Shown: one piece after another, positions 2 through 8,420 of the stretch
Numbering within the stretch: position 1 is the first letter of the stretch
How the letters are laid out: each line of letters opens with the position of its first letter
Source of the DNA: Bacteroidota bacterium
Lineage (GTDB): Bacteria > Bacteroidota > Bacteroidia > Bacteroidales > Tenuifilaceae
Direction: 5' to 3'
DNA: 34,862 nucleotides
NCBI GenBank assembly: GCA_029558675.1
Contig: JAKQEF010000101.1
Location: 1-34,862 of the forward strand
The notes under the pieces: model-generated
The model's input: the letters and a program-made list of their open reading frames with translations, nothing else
What the model was told of the DNA's origin: nothing
Databases searched by the model: none
Translations under genes and position numbers: made by a program

Positions 2-127
2 TTAGCATCTTTCAACCCCTATTCTCCTCAGCAGGTGAATGGGGTGGAAAAAATGATGAGACAAATTGGAGAATATATTCAAACAATCGACTTTAGCACG
101 GAAGAGGAGCATGACAAATCGAAGTAA
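2..127 (+). CDS. C-terminal fragment of an unidentified upstream protein
   Basis: An open frame runs from the window edge to a TAA at 125-127, giving about 41 residues that end in an acidic, charged tail (STEEEHDKSK). The fragment looks protein-like, with a helical stretch containing VEKMMRQIGEYIQ, and has no stop before 125. I do not recognise the family. Its end overlaps the start of the phosphatase gene by 17 bases if that gene begins at the ATG at 111. This is typical of translationally coupled genes, so the upstream gene may belong to the same operon as the Sia-like switch. The rest of the gene lies outside the window. Confidence 0.6.
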   Translation, partial: LASFNPYSPQQVNGVEKMMRQIGEYIQTIDFSTEEEHDKSK

Positions 128-2723
128 AAAATTTTCCAAGGCAATGATTAACAGGTTATCGCCCAAAGTGTACTACGCTGCTACCTTTGGTTTGCTTTTG
201 GTTTTATGCTCTTGGCTACTTGTTTTCGTTGCGCAGGGTATCCCTTTCTCTTTCAATGGCATTGCCAAAATCCATGCAAACAACCCCTCACTATGGATTA
301 TTGATTTACTCCCCGTTGTCTTTGCTTATACTCTTCATCTAATAGAAAAAAGGCATAACGAAAAAGTAAGCTTCCTGGAAGGAGAAATCGATCAGCGCGA
401 AAAGGATACCAGTAAAAATGCCCTGTTTGCCAAATCCATCGGCGAAGGCAACTACTACGCCCCATTCCAGATAGGAGACGAGGATGATATTCTGGGAAAA
501 TCGCTTCTGGCAATGCGCGACAACCTGCTGGAGAACAATAAAAAGGAAACAGAGCAGAATTGGATTGCCAACGGAAAAGATCAGGTTGCTCACATACTTC
601 GGATACACAACAACTTAGAAGAACTCTCATACGAGGTATTGGTAAAGTTGATTAAATATATCAACCTGATTCAGGGAGCCCTCTACCTGTACGACGAGGA
701 AAAAAAGGTATTGATCAATTTGGCCTCATACGCTTACAATCGCAAGAAGTACATCAAGCAAAAGTTTAAATTGGGCGAAGGGTTGATTGGACAGTGTGCC
801 TACGAAAAGGATATCATATACCGTACCGAAATCCCCGATGACTATATTTCCATCTCTTCCGGTATCCTAGGGGACAGGAAACCCCAGAGTTTACTTATAG
901 TTCCCCTTATCACCGATGAGAAACTTGAAGGGGTTATCGAATTCGCATCCCTCGATCAGCAAATATCCCCGTTAACCATCCGTTTTCTCCGCGAAATGGG
1001 CGAAATCATAGCACGCACCATATTCAATCTACGGGTTAACCAAAAAACCGAACGCCTGCTGCTCGAAGCCCAGCAAATGACCCAGGAGCTCAAGGAGAAC
1101 GAGGAAGAACTTCGGCAAAATGCCGAAGAGATGAGGGCTACACACGAAGAGTTGGAAAAATCAAATCTTAAGCTGGAGTCGAAAATCCAAGAGGTTGAGA
1201 ATGCCCAAAAGCGGTTACACTCCCTTTTGGAAAATGCCTCTGAGATAATCTCCATTTACAGCAGTAGCCTTAAGTTGACCTACATAAGCCCTTCGGTAAC
1301 CAAAATTTTGGGTTACACCCCCAGAGAGATGGTGAATGGGAAAGACATCGATCGCTTAACTCGAAAAGGCGAGCAAGACCTGAGCGACATGTTTCAAAAA
1401 TTGCTGGATACCCCTAGAATGCCACTCACCATTCAGTACACCTTTATGAAAAAGGACGGAACGAAGCTTTTCCTTGAGGTAACCGGGCGCAACCTGCTGG
1501 ATGATGTGGCTATCAATGGCATAATTCTTAACTCGCAGGATATCACCGAACGCAAACGTGCCGAAAAGGAGGAGAGAATGCGCAGCAAGATGCAATCCCT
1601 CTCAGAAAACTCGCCCGATATGATTATGCGTTTAAATACTTCGGGACAATTCTTTTACGCAAATCCGATGGTTGATCAATACTTGGGCATCCCGGCCAAG
1701 GAGGTAATTAACCAAACCCTCAACTCCATTGAGATGAATGAGGTATTAACCAATTACCTGAAAGAATCCATAAAAACCATTAAAACTACCAAGGATAAAG
1801 TTGAGGGAGATTTGGCATTCAACTCCATGATGGGTGAGACCATAATGCACATCTCCGCCATTCCCGAATTCAACGAGAATGAGTTGGAAACCATACTTTT
1901 TGTTGGGCACGATATAACAGAAGCCAAGCGCATCGAGCTGGAGATTCAGGATAAAAACCGAAAAATCACGGAGAGCATCAACTACGCCCAGCGAATTCAA
2001 ACCTCCATTCTCCCCAACAACAAGATTATCCGTCAGTACCTTCCCAAATCATTCATTTACTACAAACCCCGAGATGTGGTGAGCGGTGACTTCCCCTGGT
2101 TCTTTGTGAAGGAAGACAATATTTACATTGCCGTTGTCGACTGCACCGGACACGGAGTTCCCGGTGCCCTTCTTTCTTTCATCGGGTATTTCATTCTTAA
2201 CAATGTGGTTGACCACGATGCCACATACAGTGCTTCCAAAATCCTCGATTTGCTCCATTTCGGTGTCCGTAAAACGCTAAAGCAGGATCGCCACGATGCC
2301 GATGCGCGCGATGGCATGGACATTGCTCTTTGCAAAATTAATTTGAAAAAGAAAACCCTGCATTACGCCGGCGCACACCGACCGCTTTACCTACTGAGGA
2401 ACAAGGCGTTGGAAGAATATAGGGGCGACAGGAAGGCAATTGGTGGCATACCCAATCTTAAGAAAGAAGAGAATGACTTTACCAACTACCTGATTGACCT
2501 GAAACCCGGTGACAAAATATTCTTTTTCTCCGATGGTTTGCCCGATCAGGTGGGAGGAGAAGATAAAAAGAAGTATGGTCCGGCACGTATTCGGGAGAAG
2601 ATTGTGGAGAACCAAAGCTTAACCATGCCTCAGTTTAACGAGCTGTTTGAAAATGATTTTAATAACTATAAGGGTGAAAATAAGCAAATTGATGATGTAC
2701 TTTTAATTGGAATTGAATTCTAA
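111..2723 (+). CDS. SiaA-like membrane PPM/SpoIIE-type serine/threonine phosphatase (HAMP-GAF-PAS-PAS-PPM)
   Basis: Predicted sensor phosphatase. Numbered from the ATG at 111 (870 residues), it has two membrane segments (about 21-43 and 62-78), a HAMP-like linker (83-150), a GAF domain (165-310), a coiled coil (315-375), two PAS domains (372-485 and 495-610) and a C-terminal PP2C/SpoIIE domain (625-870). The metal-binding motifs are visible: SGDF (Asp660), VVDCTGHGVPGAL (Asp677), DGMDIAL, FFSDG (Asp808) and DDVLL at the end. By family knowledge such enzymes dephosphorylate a small SiaC/anti-anti-sigma type protein, and the SiaB and SiaC homologues follow directly. The frame is also open from a TTG at 66. 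I prefer the ATG at 111, which overlaps the preceding stop, or possibly the ATG at 144. One oddity is GDFPWF, where relatives I recall have GDFYWF. The signal sensed by GAF/PAS is unknown. Confidence 0.9.
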   Translation: MTNRSKKFSKAMINRLSPKVYYAATFGLLLVLCSWLLVFVAQGIPFSFNGIAKIHANNPSLWIIDLLPVVFAYTLHLIEKRHNEKVSFLEGEIDQREKDTSKNALFAKSIGEGNYYAPFQIGDEDDILGKSLLAMRDNLLENNKKETEQNWIANGKDQVAHILRIHNNLEELSYEVLVKLIKYINLIQGALYLYDEEKKVLINLASYAYNRKKYIKQKFKLGEGLIGQCAYEKDIIYRTEIPDDYISISSGILGDRKPQSLLIVPLITDEKLEGVIEFASLDQQISPLTIRFLREMGEIIARTIFNLRVNQKTERLLLEAQQMTQELKENEEELRQNAEEMRATHEELEKSNLKLESKIQEVENAQKRLHSLLENASEIISIYSSSLKLTYISPSVTKILGYTPREMVNGKDIDRLTRKGEQDLSDMFQKLLDTPRMPLTIQYTFMKKDGTKLFLEVTGRNLLDDVAINGIILNSQDITERKRAEKEERMRSKMQSLSENSPDMIMRLNTSGQFFYANPMVDQYLGIPAKEVINQTLNSIEMNEVLTNYLKESIKTIKTTKDKVEGDLAFNSMMGETIMHISAIPEFNENELETILFVGHDITEAKRIELEIQDKNRKITESINYAQRIQTSILPNNKIIRQYLPKSFIYYKPRDVVSGDFPWFFVKEDNIYIAVVDCTGHGVPGALLSFIGYFILNNVVDHDATYSASKILDLLHFGVRKTLKQDRHDADARDGMDIALCKINLKKKTLHYAGAHRPLYLLRNKALEEYRGDRKAIGGIPNLKKEENDFTNYLIDLKPGDKIFFFSDGLPDQVGGEDKKKYGPARIREKIVENQSLTMPQFNELFENDFNNYKGENKQIDDVLLIGIEF

Positions 2724-2724
2724 G

Positions 2725-2755
2725 TTGATTAATATGGGTAAATTATTTAATTTTG
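2725..2755 (+). promoter_or_regulatory. Candidate internal Bacteroidota promoter before the SiaB-like gene
   Basis: TTG at 2725-2727, a 20-base spacer, then TAATTTTG at 2748-2755, a full match to the Bacteroidota -7 element TAnnTTTG. Transcription would start at about 2760-2762, almost on the ATG at 2762, so the message would be nearly leaderless. It could also be chance in an AT-rich gap inside an operon. Confidence 0.3.
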
Positions 2756-2761
2756 CAGGCT

Positions 2762-3337
2762 ATGGATAAAAAGAATGTCAAAGGGTTCCTCGAGTTTGTT
2801 TACGACTTCTACAAGTCGATGAAAGCTCATGAAATCACCCTTGTGTACGAGGGTGAAATAACCCATCAAATTACAAAGGCATTTACATCCCTCACCGAGT
2901 CCAACATGGCCAAGGAAGAGGAGTCGAACACCGTACAAAAAAAGGTGTTCCATGTAATGGTCGAATGCTTGCAGAACATAAGCAAGCATGCTGATAGCTT
3001 TGGGTCGGACGATTTCCTGTTTGCCGGAAGAGGTATCTTTATGGTTAGCAAAGCGGACGCCGAATACCATGTAACCACCGGCAATGTGATTGAAAATTCA
3101 AAGATTGATGAACTTACTAAAATTCTCGATCACATCAATACACTCGACAAGGAAGGTTTAAAAGAACTTTATAAAACCCAAATGCGCGAGGGGCGCCTTT
3201 CGGAAAAGGGAGGAGCCGGGTTGGGATTCATTGATATTGCAAGGAAAACCGGGCGAAAACTTAATTATCACTTCTTGCCAATTGATGATGAAACGCATTT
3301 TTTCATCCTAACATCAACCATATCCAGAAACGAGTAA
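2762..3337 (+). CDS. SiaB-family protein kinase (HATPase-like, DUF6272)
   Basis: This 191-residue protein has the GHKL/HATPase features of the SiaB family: an N-box-like helix VFHVMVECLQNISKHA (Glu68, Asn72, His76) and a glycine-rich lid GGAGLGFIDIARK (about 150-162). By homology it phosphorylates the small SiaC-type protein encoded 11 bases downstream, opposing the phosphatase encoded upstream. It lacks membrane segments and a sensor domain, so signal input probably enters through the phosphatase. The frame extends to a TTG at 2753, but that TTG overlaps a promoter-like element. The ATG at 2762 gives the normal N-terminus MDKKNVKGFLEF. It probably belongs to one operon with its neighbours. 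The kinase assignment rests on family membership and gene order. Confidence 0.85.
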   Translation: MDKKNVKGFLEFVYDFYKSMKAHEITLVYEGEITHQITKAFTSLTESNMAKEEESNTVQKKVFHVMVECLQNISKHADSFGSDDFLFAGRGIFMVSKADAEYHVTTGNVIENSKIDELTKILDHINTLDKEGLKELYKTQMREGRLSEKGGAGLGFIDIARKTGRKLNYHFLPIDDETHFFILTSTISRNE

Positions 3338-3348
3338 ATCAGTAAACT

Positions 3349-3732
3349 ATGGAAACCATTAAAATAATGGGGACAGATGATACCCCCACTGTCATTCTGG
3401 ATGCAGAAAACGATATATTCGAGATATCCGGGCGTTCCCTTCCTGAAGATGTTACCGCCTTTTACGACCCAATTCTCAATTGGCTCGATGAATATGCCGC
3501 TAATTCCAATCCCAAAACTATCTTCACATTTAAATTGGTGTATTTCAACACGGCTAGCTCAAAACTCCTTCTCGATATACTAATGAAATTTGAGGAGATG
3601 CGCGAGAATGGTTTGGATGTACTAATTAAGTGGTATTACCCCGAAGATGACGAGGACATGCAGGAAGCTGGCGAAGAATACGCCGATATCGTTGACGTTC
3701 CCTTTGAACAGGTAAGTTATACACATAGTTAA
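3349..3732 (+). CDS. SiaC-family regulatory phosphoprotein (DUF1987)
   Basis: This small acidic protein of 127 residues belongs to the DUF1987/SiaC family, whose fold resembles STAS anti-anti-sigma factors. The conserved motif YFNTASSK places a threonine at residue 68, the same number as the site in P. aeruginosa SiaC that SiaB phosphorylates and SiaA dephosphorylates. In that system unphosphorylated SiaC binds and activates the diguanylate cyclase SiaD. No cyclase is encoded in this window, and the next gene is a transporter. The target of this protein is therefore unknown. The C-terminal third is strongly acidic (EDDEDMQEAGEEYAD). It begins 11 bases after the kinase gene, consistent with co-translation. 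Confidence 0.88.
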   Translation: METIKIMGTDDTPTVILDAENDIFEISGRSLPEDVTAFYDPILNWLDEYAANSNPKTIFTFKLVYFNTASSKLLLDILMKFEEMRENGLDVLIKWYYPEDDEDMQEAGEEYADIVDVPFEQVSYTHS

Positions 3733-3767
3733 TACCCATTAAGAAGTAAATCTGAACGAAATAAGCT

Positions 3768-6700
3768 ATGAGTGAAGAGATTCTCAGGGCTTTAATGCAA
3801 CTTTTTGCAATTATTGCAAAACAGGACGAAGGGGTTGAATCCAACGAACGTGAGTATGTTGTTAACTTCCTCATGCAGCAAGTAAACGATGAAGCGGTTG
3901 AAGAGTATATTAAGCTCTTCGACCAGCATGCAGGGCTGAATGAAGAAAAAGAGGAAGGAGCGGATGAAGATAATGGACAGCCTAAAAAGGTTAAACTAAC
4001 ATCGGTTAGAGACTCCGTAAAAATACTTGGGATCTGTAAAAAGATTAATAAAACCCTGACCCAGAAACAAAAGGTTGTTGTTCTCGTTCGGCTTTTTGAA
4101 CTTGTCAATGCCGATAGAAAATTTACCGATCAGCGAATGGCCATTATCAACACGGTGGCCGAAGTATTTAAGCTAACCAAAGAAGAGTTTGTTGACATTG
4201 AGAATTTTGTTATCAACAACGAAATTAATGAGTTAGACTACTCCAGCATTCTAACAATTCACGATAAGCAGGAGCATGGTGAGCATTGTAAGCACATTCC
4301 CACCGAAGCGTTAAACGGCTACCTGTTCATCCTTCAAATCAAGAGCGAAGATCTTTACTTCTTGCGATACACTGGAAATGAAGATATTTTACTCAATGGT
4401 CTCCCCATAAATCATAAGCGAATATACCTTTTTGCCAGCGGAAGTTCTATTAAACTTCCTAAAGGCAAACCCATATACTATACCGATGTGGTGGCTCACT
4501 ATTTGGCCGACTCAACCACAGTAAGGGTTTCCTACTGTGCCGAAAATATAGGATTTACATTTAAAACAGGCGATGTCGGGCTGCGTGACATATCATTTCA
4601 AGAAGGGCAAGGAAAACTGATTGGCATCATGGGAGCCAGCGGAGCAGGAAAAACCACGCTGCTCAACGTGCTCGCCGGAATTGAAAAACCGACCACAGGA
4701 AGAGTACTAATCAACGGAATCGACCTCCATAAAGACAAGGGTAGTCTGGAAGGGGTAATTGGAGTTATCCCTCAGGATGATCTTCTCATTGAAGAGCTAA
4801 CCGTATTCCAAAACCTGTACTACAACGCCAAACTCTGCTTTAAAGACAAATCCGAGGAAGAGCTTACACAACTCGTAAACAAAACCCTTAACAATCTTGG
4901 CCTTTACGAACGCAAGGATTTAAAGGTTGGGTCGCCGATGAACAAAATGATATCAGGAGGGCAGCGTAAACGCCTTAACATAGCCCTAGAGCTTATCCGC
5001 GAACCCTCTATTCTTTTTGTCGACGAACCAACATCAGGCCTCTCTTCGCGCGACTCTGAAAACGTAATGGACCTGCTGCGTGAACTAACCCTCAAAGGGA
5101 AGCTCATTTTCGTTGTTATCCATCAACCATCATCCGACATTTATAAGATGTTTGACAATATGATGATTTTGGATACGGGTGGGTATTTGATTTACTACGG
5201 CAATCCTGTTGAAGCGGTTATGTACTTCAAACGGATTGATATGCAAATCAATAGCGATCAAGGGGAGTGCCCAACTTGCGGAAACGTCAATCCAGAGCTT
5301 ATCTTCAATATCATTGAGGCAAGAGTGGTGGACGAATTCGGGCGATATACCCCAACTCGAAAAGTTTCGCCTGCCAAGTGGGAAGGTCACTACAGAGAAA
5401 ACATCAAGCTGAGCGAAGTGCCCCACGAAAGTGTACCACCCCCCAAATCGCTCAATATCCCTTCGAGGATAAGACAGTTCCTCATCTATACCACCCGCGA
5501 TTTTCTCTCGAAAATTAGCAATACCCAGTATATCGTACTAAATCTTCTTGAAACGCCAATTCTGGGTTTTGTACTTGCCTACGTGATTAGGTATATTGCC
5601 GACCCCAACTCCAATGTTTACATTTTCAGAGAAAACGAGAATATACCTATATATATATTCATGGCGCTTATCGTGGCACTATTCATTGGTTTAACAGTAA
5701 GTGCTGAAGAAATTTTCCGCGATCGCAAGATCCTCAAACGGGAGGCATTCCTCAACCTTAGCCGCACCTCGTACCTGTTGAGCAAGATTAGTATTCTGGT
5801 TGCCCTTTCGGCAATTCAGTGTATAACCTTCGTTCTCATAGCCAATAGCATATTGGAACTAAGGGATTTGAACTTCGTTTACTGGCTTGCCCTTTTTTCG
5901 ACAGCCGTTTTTGCCAACCTGCTGGGGCTGAACATCTCTGCAACATTCAACTCTGCTGTTACCATCTACATCGTCATCCCACTCTTAATGATACCCATGA
6001 TGGTACTATCGGGTGCAATGTTCAGCTTCGAAAAGTTGAATAGGGCGGTGGGGAGTTTCGGCAGAGTTCCGTTAATAGCTGAATTTATGGCCACCAAGTG
6101 GAGCTACGAAGCTTTAGTGGTACACCAATTTAAGGACAACGAATTCCACAAGCATTTCTACGAAATAGAGAAGGTAGAGCGTAATGCTGACTACAAAAAC
6201 GTTTACTTCATCCCCGAATTGGAAAAATACCTTAACGAAAGTATAGAAGCCCTTGGCAACAATGACGAGGATAGCAAGCATAAACTCACTGTCGATTTGC
6301 TGGTATTATACAACTCTTTGTACAACGAGACCAACTATATGGCACCCGGAATTCCCTATAGTTACCTCGACCAGTTAAATAATAATAACTATAGCTACGA
6401 AGTTGCATACGCCACTTTTGACTACTTAGATGACCTTAAAAAGCATTACAATAAATTATTCCAAGAGGCCAATCAGCGACGCGATCGCCTGATTTCGCAC
6501 TTGGTAAGCACAAATGCACGTTTATACGAGGCAAAACGTAAAGCATACCATAACGAGAGCATTTCTGATCTGGTAACCAAGAAGTTCGAAAAGAATTGCA
6601 TACTACAGTATAAGGGAGAACTTGTTCAACAGAACGACCCCATTTACCGCGATCCTATTCCCAGGCACAAGTTCGACTTCAGATCGCATTTCCTTGCTCC

Positions 6701-6860
6701 TCGCAAACATTTCCTTGGAAAATACTACGATACTTTTTGGTTCAATATTTGCTTTATATGGATTATGACGGCCATTCTTTACATAGCCCTATACTTTGAA
6801 GTTTTGAAAAAAATAATTGACTTTTTCAGTAAATTAAGCTTCCCAAAATTTAGAAAATAG
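3768..6860 (+). CDS. ABCG-type ABC transporter fusion with N-terminal TerB-like and FHA-like regions
   Basis: This is a 1030-residue half-transporter. Residues 1-155 form two helical halves resembling TerB (AIIAKQDEGVESNE, LVNADRKFTDQRM). Residues 180-250 look like a degenerate FHA fold (ILLNGLPINHKRIYLFASGS) without the usual GR and SxxH phosphothreonine-binding residues. The ATPase follows: Walker A GASGAGKTT (289-297), Q-loop Gln336, signature ISGGQRKRL (395-403), Walker B ILFVDEPTSGL (415-425), His452. A GECPTCG segment (499-505, Cys501/Cys504) leads to six membrane segments at about 589-610, 627-645, 670-695, 703-727, 729-752 and 990-1012. A loop of about 235 residues, rich in Tyr/Asn/Lys, lies between the last two. 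ABCG proteins usually export lipophilic or envelope substrates, and the substrate here is unknown. It starts 35 bases after the SiaC-like gene, which suggests the switch regulates it or shares its task. Confidence 0.85.
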   Translation: MSEEILRALMQLFAIIAKQDEGVESNEREYVVNFLMQQVNDEAVEEYIKLFDQHAGLNEEKEEGADEDNGQPKKVKLTSVRDSVKILGICKKINKTLTQKQKVVVLVRLFELVNADRKFTDQRMAIINTVAEVFKLTKEEFVDIENFVINNEINELDYSSILTIHDKQEHGEHCKHIPTEALNGYLFILQIKSEDLYFLRYTGNEDILLNGLPINHKRIYLFASGSSIKLPKGKPIYYTDVVAHYLADSTTVRVSYCAENIGFTFKTGDVGLRDISFQEGQGKLIGIMGASGAGKTTLLNVLAGIEKPTTGRVLINGIDLHKDKGSLEGVIGVIPQDDLLIEELTVFQNLYYNAKLCFKDKSEEELTQLVNKTLNNLGLYERKDLKVGSPMNKMISGGQRKRLNIALELIREPSILFVDEPTSGLSSRDSENVMDLLRELTLKGKLIFVVIHQPSSDIYKMFDNMMILDTGGYLIYYGNPVEAVMYFKRIDMQINSDQGECPTCGNVNPELIFNIIEARVVDEFGRYTPTRKVSPAKWEGHYRENIKLSEVPHESVPPPKSLNIPSRIRQFLIYTTRDFLSKISNTQYIVLNLLETPILGFVLAYVIRYIADPNSNVYIFRENENIPIYIFMALIVALFIGLTVSAEEIFRDRKILKREAFLNLSRTSYLLSKISILVALSAIQCITFVLIANSILELRDLNFVYWLALFSTAVFANLLGLNISATFNSAVTIYIVIPLLMIPMMVLSGAMFSFEKLNRAVGSFGRVPLIAEFMATKWSYEALVVHQFKDNEFHKHFYEIEKVERNADYKNVYFIPELEKYLNESIEALGNNDEDSKHKLTVDLLVLYNSLYNETNYMAPGIPYSYLDQLNNNNYSYEVAYATFDYLDDLKKHYNKLFQEANQRRDRLISHLVSTNARLYEAKRKAYHNESISDLVTKKFEKNCILQYKGELVQQNDPIYRDPIPRHKFDFRSHFLAPRKHFLGKYYDTFWFNICFIWIMTAILYIALYFEVLKKIIDFFSKLSFPKFRK

Positions 6861-6922
6861 TTTTTTTGTATATCTTTACTTTTTGTGTTTTGTTTGGAAA
6901 AAGGAAAATAAATCTATAGACT

Positions 6923-7834
6923 ATGTACAGAAATGTAATTTTGCTAATTGCCACTGTTTTGTTAGCAACATCGTGCCGCTTCTTCGATTCGAATCGGAAC
7001 CTTAGCAGAGAAGATTTTGATATACCCGAGGGATTACTCGATGAAAAACCTCTCGAAGTAGCATCGGAAGTTATTGATGATATGATCCAGAACGTATCCT
7101 CCCCTGTTGAAATGGCAGCTATAATAAAAGGTCTAAAAATCCCTTTCAACCGCGATTATATTGCCAATACCAAGGACATGAACAACCTCAATACCAGTTT
7201 TCAGAAAGCCGTAGGGCTGGGTATTTATGGTGCCGATTTGGGGTATATTAACATGTACGAAAGGACATCATTGGTAATTAATCACATAACAACCATTAAG
7301 TCCCTTGCCGATGGTATTCAAGTGGGCCAGTTTTTCGACTTCAACTCACTTAGCCGCATTGCCACAAACAGAGAGAATATCGACTCACTTCTGCTCATTT
7401 CGCAGCAAAGCTTTAATCGCATTGACAGCTACCTGAGGGAAACCAATAGGGCTCATTTAAGCGTTGTTATCATTGCCGGTGTTTGGATCGAAGGTCTTTA
7501 CATTGCCAGTAGGGTAGCCGAAGATGCAAAACACCCAAGGATTGACGAGACCATTGGTGAACAAAAGGTAATTATGAGCAGTTTGATGCTACTTCTCAAT
7601 AACTATAAGGGCGATCCCAATGTGTCTAAACTTATTTCTGATTTTGAGGAAATTCAAGCGCTCTATAAAGATGTCAGGATTACATACGAGTATGGTGATC
7701 CAATACCCGTTGAGAAGGATGGGGTTTTAACATTTAAACAGAACGATACTCAAACCATTATCATGTCGGATGAAACGCTAAACAACATCATAAAGAAAGT
7801 TCAAAGCGTAAGAAATAAACTTTTGATTGGATAA
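6923..7834 (+). CDS. Predicted lipoprotein of unknown function
   Basis: This 303-residue protein starts with a lipoprotein signal peptide: a short basic start, a hydrophobic stretch and a lipobox LATSC with the modified cysteine at residue 18. The mature part is mainly predicted helical and has no motif I recognise. It contains repeated polar helices (EVASEVIDDMIQNVSS, NNIIKKVQSVRNKLL) and no further membrane segment. It lies 62 bases after the ABCG-type gene on the same strand and precedes a second secreted protein. This suggests an envelope partner of the transporter, but that rests on position alone. An outer-membrane lipoprotein facing the periplasm is most likely. I cannot give it a family name. 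Confidence 0.75.
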   Translation: MYRNVILLIATVLLATSCRFFDSNRNLSREDFDIPEGLLDEKPLEVASEVIDDMIQNVSSPVEMAAIIKGLKIPFNRDYIANTKDMNNLNTSFQKAVGLGIYGADLGYINMYERTSLVINHITTIKSLADGIQVGQFFDFNSLSRIATNRENIDSLLLISQQSFNRIDSYLRETNRAHLSVVIIAGVWIEGLYIASRVAEDAKHPRIDETIGEQKVIMSSLMLLLNNYKGDPNVSKLISDFEEIQALYKDVRITYEYGDPIPVEKDGVLTFKQNDTQTIIMSDETLNNIIKKVQSVRNKLLIG

Positions 7835-7856
7835 TTTTTTTGAAATTCCTTTGATT

Positions 7857-8294
7857 ATGAAAAACATATTTCTTTTTTCCCTGTTCTCAATTATCCTGTC
7901 GGGATGGACTGTTACGACATATGCTCAAAGTGAGGACGATCTAATCGAAATTTGTGGAATGATTGCTCAGGATGCAACATTCCTAAAAGATTTTACCATC
8001 CGCCTCGATGCAGGTGATCCTCCACCAATTCAGCGATTCTCTGTAATACTCAAAAAAGGTATTAAGTACCGGTTCTCCGTATGTAACTCCAACGATTACG
8101 AAGGAAGGGTCATTTTGCAACTATTTGATAATAATCGTTTACTGGCTACCACATATGTTGTGGCCAGCGGAAAAGATTACCCCTCAATAGACTACGATTG
8201 TTCAAAAACCGGTGCGTATCACCTGTTTTTTAACTTCAAAGAGGGTAAGCCCGGTTTGGCGGTTGGGCTACTATCGCTGGTTGAAACCATGTAA
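7857..8294 (+). CDS. Small secreted protein of unknown function
   Basis: This 145-residue protein has a classical signal peptide (hydrophobic residues 4-18, likely cleavage after Ala23 in TYA-Q). The mature domain is beta-rich, with alternating patterns such as YRFSVCNSNDYEGRVILQLFDNN, reminiscent of small periplasmic or surface-exposed beta-sandwich domains. Its cysteines are few and not paired in an obvious motif. A frame extension to a TTG at 7827 would overlap the lipoprotein gene and spoil the signal peptide, so the ATG at 7857 is chosen. It begins 22 bases after the lipoprotein gene and is followed by a strong terminator, so it is probably the last gene of the Sia-like operon. Confidence 0.72.
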   Translation: MKNIFLFSLFSIILSGWTVTTYAQSEDDLIEICGMIAQDATFLKDFTIRLDAGDPPPIQRFSVILKKGIKYRFSVCNSNDYEGRVILQLFDNNRLLATTYVVASGKDYPSIDYDCSKTGAYHLFFNFKEGKPGLAVGLLSLVETM

Positions 8295-8311
8295 CTCTTG
8301 GATATAATACA

Positions 8312-8346
8312 AAAAAGAACCGGCACTTGTACCGGTTCTTTTTTTG
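8312..8346. terminator. Bidirectional intrinsic terminator
   Basis: A 9-bp perfect stem, AAGAACCGG (8315-8323) with CCGGTTCTT (8332-8340), has an 8-base loop, an A-run on the left and a T-run on the right. It can end the plus-strand operon upstream and also the minus-strand tRNA-Asn, whose 3' end lies directly next to it. Confidence 0.88.
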
Positions 8347-8420
8347 CTCCTCATCCAGGACTTGAACCTGGGACCCCCTGATTAACAGTCAGGTGCTCTA
8401 ACCAACTGAGCTAATGAGGA
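8347..8420 (-). tRNA. tRNA-Asn (anticodon GTT)
   Basis: On the minus strand the sequence folds as a standard tRNA. It has a 7-bp acceptor stem (TCCTCAT with ATGAGGA), a D-arm with AGCTCAGTTGGTTAGAGC, an anticodon stem CCTGA/TCAGG around loop CTGTTAA, and a T-arm with GGTTCAAGTCC. The anticodon GTT lies at 8384-8386 of the plus strand. The discriminator base is G, as expected for asparagine. CCA is not encoded. Confidence 0.96.

Follow-up and report, generated by a model that had tools for sequence, protein, structure and literature searches.

We describe a gene run at the left end of a 34,862-base stretch of Bacteroidota DNA (the window, which is the entire contig C80 of genome G000; assembly 2.06 Mb, 63.6% complete) in which a SiaABC phosphoprotein switch is joined to a TerB-ABCG transporter, a lipoprotein and a small secreted protein. 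In Pseudomonas aeruginosa, unphosphorylated SiaC binds the diguanylate cyclase SiaD and phosphorylation blocks this binding (PMC8457831). We propose that the SiaABC partner switch of the window probably has the ABCG exporter as its effector instead of a diguanylate cyclase; direct control of transport is the most likely output because the genomes concerned have no cyclic di-GMP (c-di-GMP) cyclase and the switch is genetically tied to the transporter. A sequence-only reading of the window had suggested that the output may be a transport or envelope function, and this is now the best-supported reading, given the gene linkage, the absence of GGDEF proteins and the disappearance of a TerB motif along with SiaB and SiaC. 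At the level of sequence, these three lines of evidence are joined by the parts list itself, the intact catalytic and phospho-acceptor residues, and the co-occurrence of SiaC and transporter across genomes.

Switch proteins, gene order and co-occurrence

The six open reading frames (ORFs) of the run lie on one strand with gaps of 38, 11, 35, 62 and 22 bases, the first being 29 if SiaB starts at TTG 2753 (Table 1). The sequence-only reading had claimed such a six-gene run, with gaps of 11-62 and a strong terminator, and ORF calls, family matches and the hairpin bear this out. Its starting point of 111 had to be corrected, as another ORF, cut by the left edge, extends into the SiaA gene, and it had overlooked the CheR, CheB and GAF genes upstream, the convergent arrangement and ten other SiaC copies, all described below.

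The SiaC product matched PF09345 with 141 bits (cut-off 24.5, E=1.8e-41) and aligned with the P. aeruginosa SiaC structures 6kko and 6k4f (E=5.8e-15), and the N-T-S phosphosites coincide, Thr68 falling on Thr68. This threonine is present in 93/93 transporter-linked SiaC proteins; the ten other copies of the window genome have Ser (six) or Thr (four) at this site. SiaB scored 179.6 bits with NF038262 (SiaB_fam_kinase, cut-off 85), and its E71 and N75 (catalytic Glu and N-box) and its H79, all numbered from TTG 2753, are invariant in all 37 aligned rows. Similarly, the SpoIIE domain of SiaA exceeded the curated Pfam cut-off (4.5e-18), and the PP2C motifs SGD, DCTGHG, DGMD, SDG and QxDD, with their acidic metal-site residues, are kept among its homologues. 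The NCBIfam equivalogs NF038263, NF038264 and NF038265 were not reached by the SiaA, SiaB and SiaC of the window (184/700, 89/225 and 83/150 bits, respectively), the SiaA profile covering the C-terminal domain only. By their predicted activities the three products are a SiaABC module, with a phospho-acceptor SiaC, a SiaB-family kinase and a PP2C membrane sensor.

Elsewhere in this partial genome (loci L001-L010 and L041-L047), SiaC genes bring the total to eleven, several of them solitary or in tandem, and there are about ten DUF6272/SiaB matches. On contig C34, two adjacent proteins (L051:3485-4585 and 4870-5967) each have two SiaB/DUF6272 domains with SiaC not nearby, and on contig C160 a SiaC gene overlaps the 5' end of a gene for a TPR histidine kinase (L044:4774-6911), another possible SiaC output. 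In a SiaC tree, which has too few columns for deep forks, the co-directional transporter-linked SiaC proteins group together and most other copies of the window genome form long branches.

We compared 80 named Bacteroidota loci, the nearest and most similar in sequence; the complete order PP2C-SiaB-SiaC-transporter-lipoprotein-secreted protein was found in 52 of these, among them loci of the isolates Alkaliflexus imshenetskii (L178) and Persicobacter sp. (L210). The sequence-only reading would have been undone by an order confined to this genome; instead it is widespread, and because it recurs across many families the run is, on this comparison of sequences, beyond chance. We also inspected 89 fetched transporter loci, which were picked by similarity rank and include related genomes that are not independent. 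The lipoprotein was found within 3 kb of the transporter in 79 of them and the secreted protein in 76. SiaC lay inside the same distance in 30 loci, which represent 28 genomes and 20 families, where roughly 1-2 loci are expected by chance. Eleven of these 30 are co-directional as in the window and 17 are convergent, with lipoprotein-secreted-transporter facing SiaC-SiaB-...-PP2C; in the convergent loci a lipoprotein-like protein of about 270 amino acids often lies between PP2C and SiaB. The 17 convergent loci indicate that the SiaC-transporter pair stayed together through inversion. This bears on the possibility that SiaABC acts elsewhere in the cytoplasm (on a kinase, on a sigma/anti-sigma pathway or on another SiaC-family partner) and that the transporter is only a co-transcribed, co-regulated neighbor. 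Conserved operons do often group the genes of one process without contact between the products, and the eleven SiaC genes, one adjoining a histidine kinase gene, speak for use of SiaC elsewhere; however, a convergent pair cannot be co-transcribed, and we regard this explanation as unlikely.

A further argument against mere co-transcription is that presence and absence match even where SiaC and transporter are unlinked. In a sample of 395 Bacteroidia genomes, with a threshold of E<=1e-60 for transporter homologues, the transporter was found in 199 and SiaC in 213; 190 genomes have both, 9 the transporter only, 23 SiaC only (many of these being incomplete assemblies) and 173 neither (Fisher P=6e-73, without correction for phylogeny). 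As controls, COX1 was present in 40/40 'both' and 35/40 'neither' genomes and, since COX1 is too common (75/80) to discriminate, catalase was added (8/40 and 10/40, P=0.79). Neither gene follows the pattern, so the co-occurrence is not a plain effect of aerobic lifestyle.

Control of a diguanylate cyclase, as in P. aeruginosa, would need a SiaD encoded elsewhere or missed. SiaC is homologous to the P. aeruginosa protein and has the same phosphosite, and an assembly that is only 64% complete leaves room for a missed gene. The sequence-only reading had seen no cyclase in the window and had called for a search for SiaD in the rest of the genome: no GGDEF protein was found in the whole window genome (at 63.6% completeness), nor in any of 46 other genomes with SiaC and transporter, of which 39 are near-complete, in a search whose positive controls were detected in 8 of 14 reference genomes. 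The Pseudomonas output is therefore unavailable in these organisms, and cyclase control, already contradicted by these counts, deserves next to no credence.

A TerB motif that is lost with SiaB and SiaC

The nine genomes with a transporter and no SiaC all lack SiaB as well. Families f12, f30 and f67 hold both states and, with f3, make at least four separate cases; each of the same-family genomes tested (f30, f67 and one of f12) carries a single SiaB gene. We compared the nine SiaC-lacking transporters with 103 transporters of the SiaC-positive set. The fraction of conserved positions kept in the nine was 0.89 for the nucleotide-binding domain (NBD) and 0.87 for the transmembrane domain (TMD), and 0.55 for the latter half of TerB. 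The positions that best separate the two sets, K76, S79, S83, V84, L87 and T129, are all in the TerB domain. The first five belong to one motif, where a TerB helix begins (K-x-T-S-x-x-S-V-K): K76, S79 and S83 are fully lost in the nine, and S83 is present in 98/103 of the SiaC-positive set vs 0/9 of the SiaC-lacking transporters (P=4e-10). The motif is retained in the same-family genomes that have SiaB and SiaC. Its loss together with SiaB and SiaC in at least four families points to contact between SiaC and the transporter, and we regard it as a candidate SiaC docking helix. Such a specific loss is also not what co-transcription alone would lead one to expect. In P. aeruginosa, SiaC Thr68 contacts S82/Q86 in the stalk of SiaD (PMC8457831); TerB Ser79/Ser83 (i, i+4) resemble this pair, a likeness that was considered too loose and was not used.

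Two further sets of loci concern transporters that lack the switch. In family f3 (L275 and L276), a receiver-SpoIIE phosphatase gene lies close to a transporter without SiaB and SiaC, perhaps reflecting a different control. In the SiaC-lacking loci L277-L282 the lipoprotein is kept and the secreted-protein gene was undetected beside the transporter, as it was in some SiaC-positive loci of f67 and f30. Furthermore, the window genome itself has a second TerB-ABCG transporter (L048, G000:C97) with its own secreted protein and lipoprotein, SiaC not nearby and the TerB motif kept.

Several observations weigh against the transporter as effector. Five of the 103 transporters of the SiaC-positive set are without S83; among these, L102 and L114 are second copies whose first copies (L062 and L063) keep SiaC linkage, and L258 comes from a genome (G121) with only a divergent SiaB. 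Overall divergence is somewhat greater among the SiaC-lacking transporters, so that loss of the motif may be partly general relaxation. Transporter and lipoprotein persist in nine genomes without SiaB and SiaC, which implies that the switch would be a regulator and not an essential part. The ten further SiaC genes of the window genome make other SiaC targets possible. Finally, the linkage rate is a biased estimate because similarity rank governed the choice of the 89 loci.

Based on these results, we favor the following model for the SiaABC-transporter pairing, in which SiaC-transporter binding, the binding site, the sign of control, the substrate and the role of CheR and CheB are what we infer. 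The SiaB kinase would phosphorylate SiaC on Thr68, and SiaA, a membrane PP2C sensor with GAF and PAS domains, would take the phosphate off SiaC on sensing its signal. In one of its two states, presumably unphosphorylated as in P. aeruginosa, SiaC would bind the N-terminal TerB domain of the transporter, with the helix that opens with K-x-T-S-x-x-S-V-K as the likeliest site, and this binding would alter the ATPase or the assembly state of the ABCG dimer. Working with its two partners, the lipoprotein and the secreted protein, which would lie across the inner membrane, the transporter may then move a lipid-like or other envelope molecule; a lipid-like substrate is what the ABCG fold of the predicted structure suggests.

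Transporter architecture and neighboring genes

The transporter exceeded the curated Pfam cut-offs for TerB (34.4 bits vs 24.4), ABC_tran and ABC2_membrane. In its AlphaFold2 model (predicted local distance difference test score, pLDDT, 84.6), residues 253-1018 have the ABCG fold, with the NBD N-terminal to the TMD (Z ~31 for comparisons with ABCG2, ABCG5, ABCG8 and AtABCG25), and the Walker A and B, signature and H-loop residues are invariant across 88 aligned rows. An inserted domain of about 185 residues, near 796-980, precedes the last transmembrane helix. N-terminal to the ABCG part, the model has an all-helical TerB region followed by a small beta region. The latter (residues 152-255) may be a degenerate FHA domain: Pfam FHA was not matched, two of four weak PDB sequence matches are FHA domains (E=0.066 and 0.92), and N210-G211 is almost invariant.

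Neither the lipoprotein nor the secreted protein belongs to a family in Pfam or NCBIfam, and profile searches against the PDB gave no usable match for either. The lipoprotein was modeled with a pLDDT of 84.8; its best structural matches, a designed protein (Z 7.5) and the imelysin-like 3pf0 (Z 6.2), are both within helical-bundle background and were not taken as fold assignments.

Of 58 named loci, 42 encode CheR, CheB and a GAF membrane protein immediately before SiaA. The window probably begins in the tail of such a GAF gene, as its leftmost ORF resembles the C-terminus of the L144 GAF protein by blastp (42% over 26 amino acids, E=0.002), a match that is weak alone and agrees with synteny. 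As the contig ends inside this probable GAF gene, CheR and CheB are expected past the contig edge. At L221:4229-15847, in a genome of the same taxonomic order (G251), one run encodes CheA, CheW, CheR, a histidine kinase, CheD, CheB-REC and a GAF/PAS protein before SiaABC and the transporter. In many relatives, CheR, CheB and the GAF protein would probably tune the sensor by methylation, although a role for CheR/CheB in tuning SiaA is conjecture. The frequency of this upstream trio, and the genome with CheA, CheW, CheD and CheB-REC in the same run, might be read as a sign that the switch acts on the chemosensory part, with the transporter as sensory input or unrelated passenger. We find this very improbable, since the convergent loci that were seen keep SiaABC and transporter with no CheR or CheB nearby, and CheB was not found in the window genome, the assembly of which is incomplete. 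The transporter as effector of the switch remains our preferred reading. Its fullest form is a machine widespread in Bacteroidota in which Che enzymes (CheR/CheB, in one genome also CheA/CheW/CheD) would tune the PP2C sensor, and this sensor would act through SiaB/SiaC docking at the TerB helix to gate the ABCG exporter directly; it is put forward tentatively, as possible rather than probable.

Table 1. Features of the gene run and its flanks (positions in the window)
Feature	Position	Strand	Basis or remark
Upstream ORF fragment, C-terminal, probably of a GAF-domain membrane protein	2..127	+	overlaps SiaA start; blastp and synteny
SiaA-like sensor phosphatase: N-terminal hydrophobic segment, GAF, two PAS, C-terminal SpoIIE/PP2C	111..2723	+	Pfam
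SiaB-family protein kinase (DUF6272)	2762..3337 (ATG; alternative TTG 2753)	+	NF038262
SiaC phosphoprotein; phospho-acceptor Thr68 codon 3550-3552	3349..3732	+	PF09345
TerB + FHA-like + ABCG-type half-transporter, 1030 amino acids	3768..6860	+	Pfam, AlphaFold2
Candidate SiaC docking motif, transporter residues 76-87	3993..4028	+	motif loss in SiaC-lacking genomes
Helical lipoprotein, Cys18, conserved transporter partner	6923..7834	+	linkage, AlphaFold2
Small secreted protein with signal peptide	7857..8294	+	linkage; no family
Terminator hairpin, 15 pairs and T-run, near-palindromic, probably bidirectional	8311-8344		closes run
tRNA-Asn	8346-8420	- (opposite the run)	3' of terminator

Known systems and significance

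The closest described counterpart is SiaABCD of P. aeruginosa (PMC7647112, PMC8457831), which likewise has a PP2C SiaA, the kinase SiaB and SiaC in one operon, Thr68 within N-T-S and the catalytic Glu/Asn of SiaB. In contrast to that system, SiaD with its GGDEF domain is replaced here by the TerB-ABCG transporter, lipoprotein and secreted protein, the SiaA sensor is of GAF/PAS type, and the proteins fall below all three equivalog cut-offs. HsbRAD and BgrSTUWV (as cited in PMC8457831) also have a phosphorylated partner protein that shuttles between kinase and effector; their effectors are diguanylate cyclases, however, and the partners are STAS proteins rather than SiaC. On the transporter side, Rv1747-PknF of Mycobacterium tuberculosis (PMC3908365, PMC5549992) similarly combines an ABC exporter bearing regulatory FHA domains with a Ser/Thr kinase of the same operon. 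It differs in that the kinase is of Hanks type, whereas the window encodes a soluble SiaC phospho-partner, and in that the FHA-like region here is degenerate, with a sequence match that is not significant. The eukaryotic ABCG half-transporters (ABCG2, ABCG5/G8 and AtABCG25) share the fold and the NBD-then-TMD order, to which the transporter of the window adds TerB, the FHA-like domain, the large insert before the last transmembrane helix, and the lipoprotein and secreted partners.

The sequence-only reading knew of no described system with this layout, and in the open-access literature we likewise found neither the same gene layout nor a link between DUF1987/DUF6272 and an ABC transporter. The ABCG fold is of a known kind, as are the switch proteins; it is their pairing, its conservation in convergent loci, the TerB motif and the upstream Che genes that were not found described there. 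DUF1987 proteins in general have been proposed to modulate adjacent proteins (PMC8457831), and the SiaC-transporter pairing fits that proposal, which foresaw a new partner and not this one.

Roughly one in two of the sampled Bacteroidia genomes encodes SiaC/DUF1987, and the only described output that we found is the Pseudomonas cyclase SiaD. These data offer a concrete candidate partner for SiaC, and a candidate docking motif, for genomes without c-di-GMP cyclases. Furthermore, an uncharacterised ABCG family found in 199 of 395 Bacteroidia genomes gains a candidate regulator and two partner proteins. The pairing of the switch with an ABCG transporter extends to many environmental Bacteroidota, and it suggests that partner switches may control transporters.

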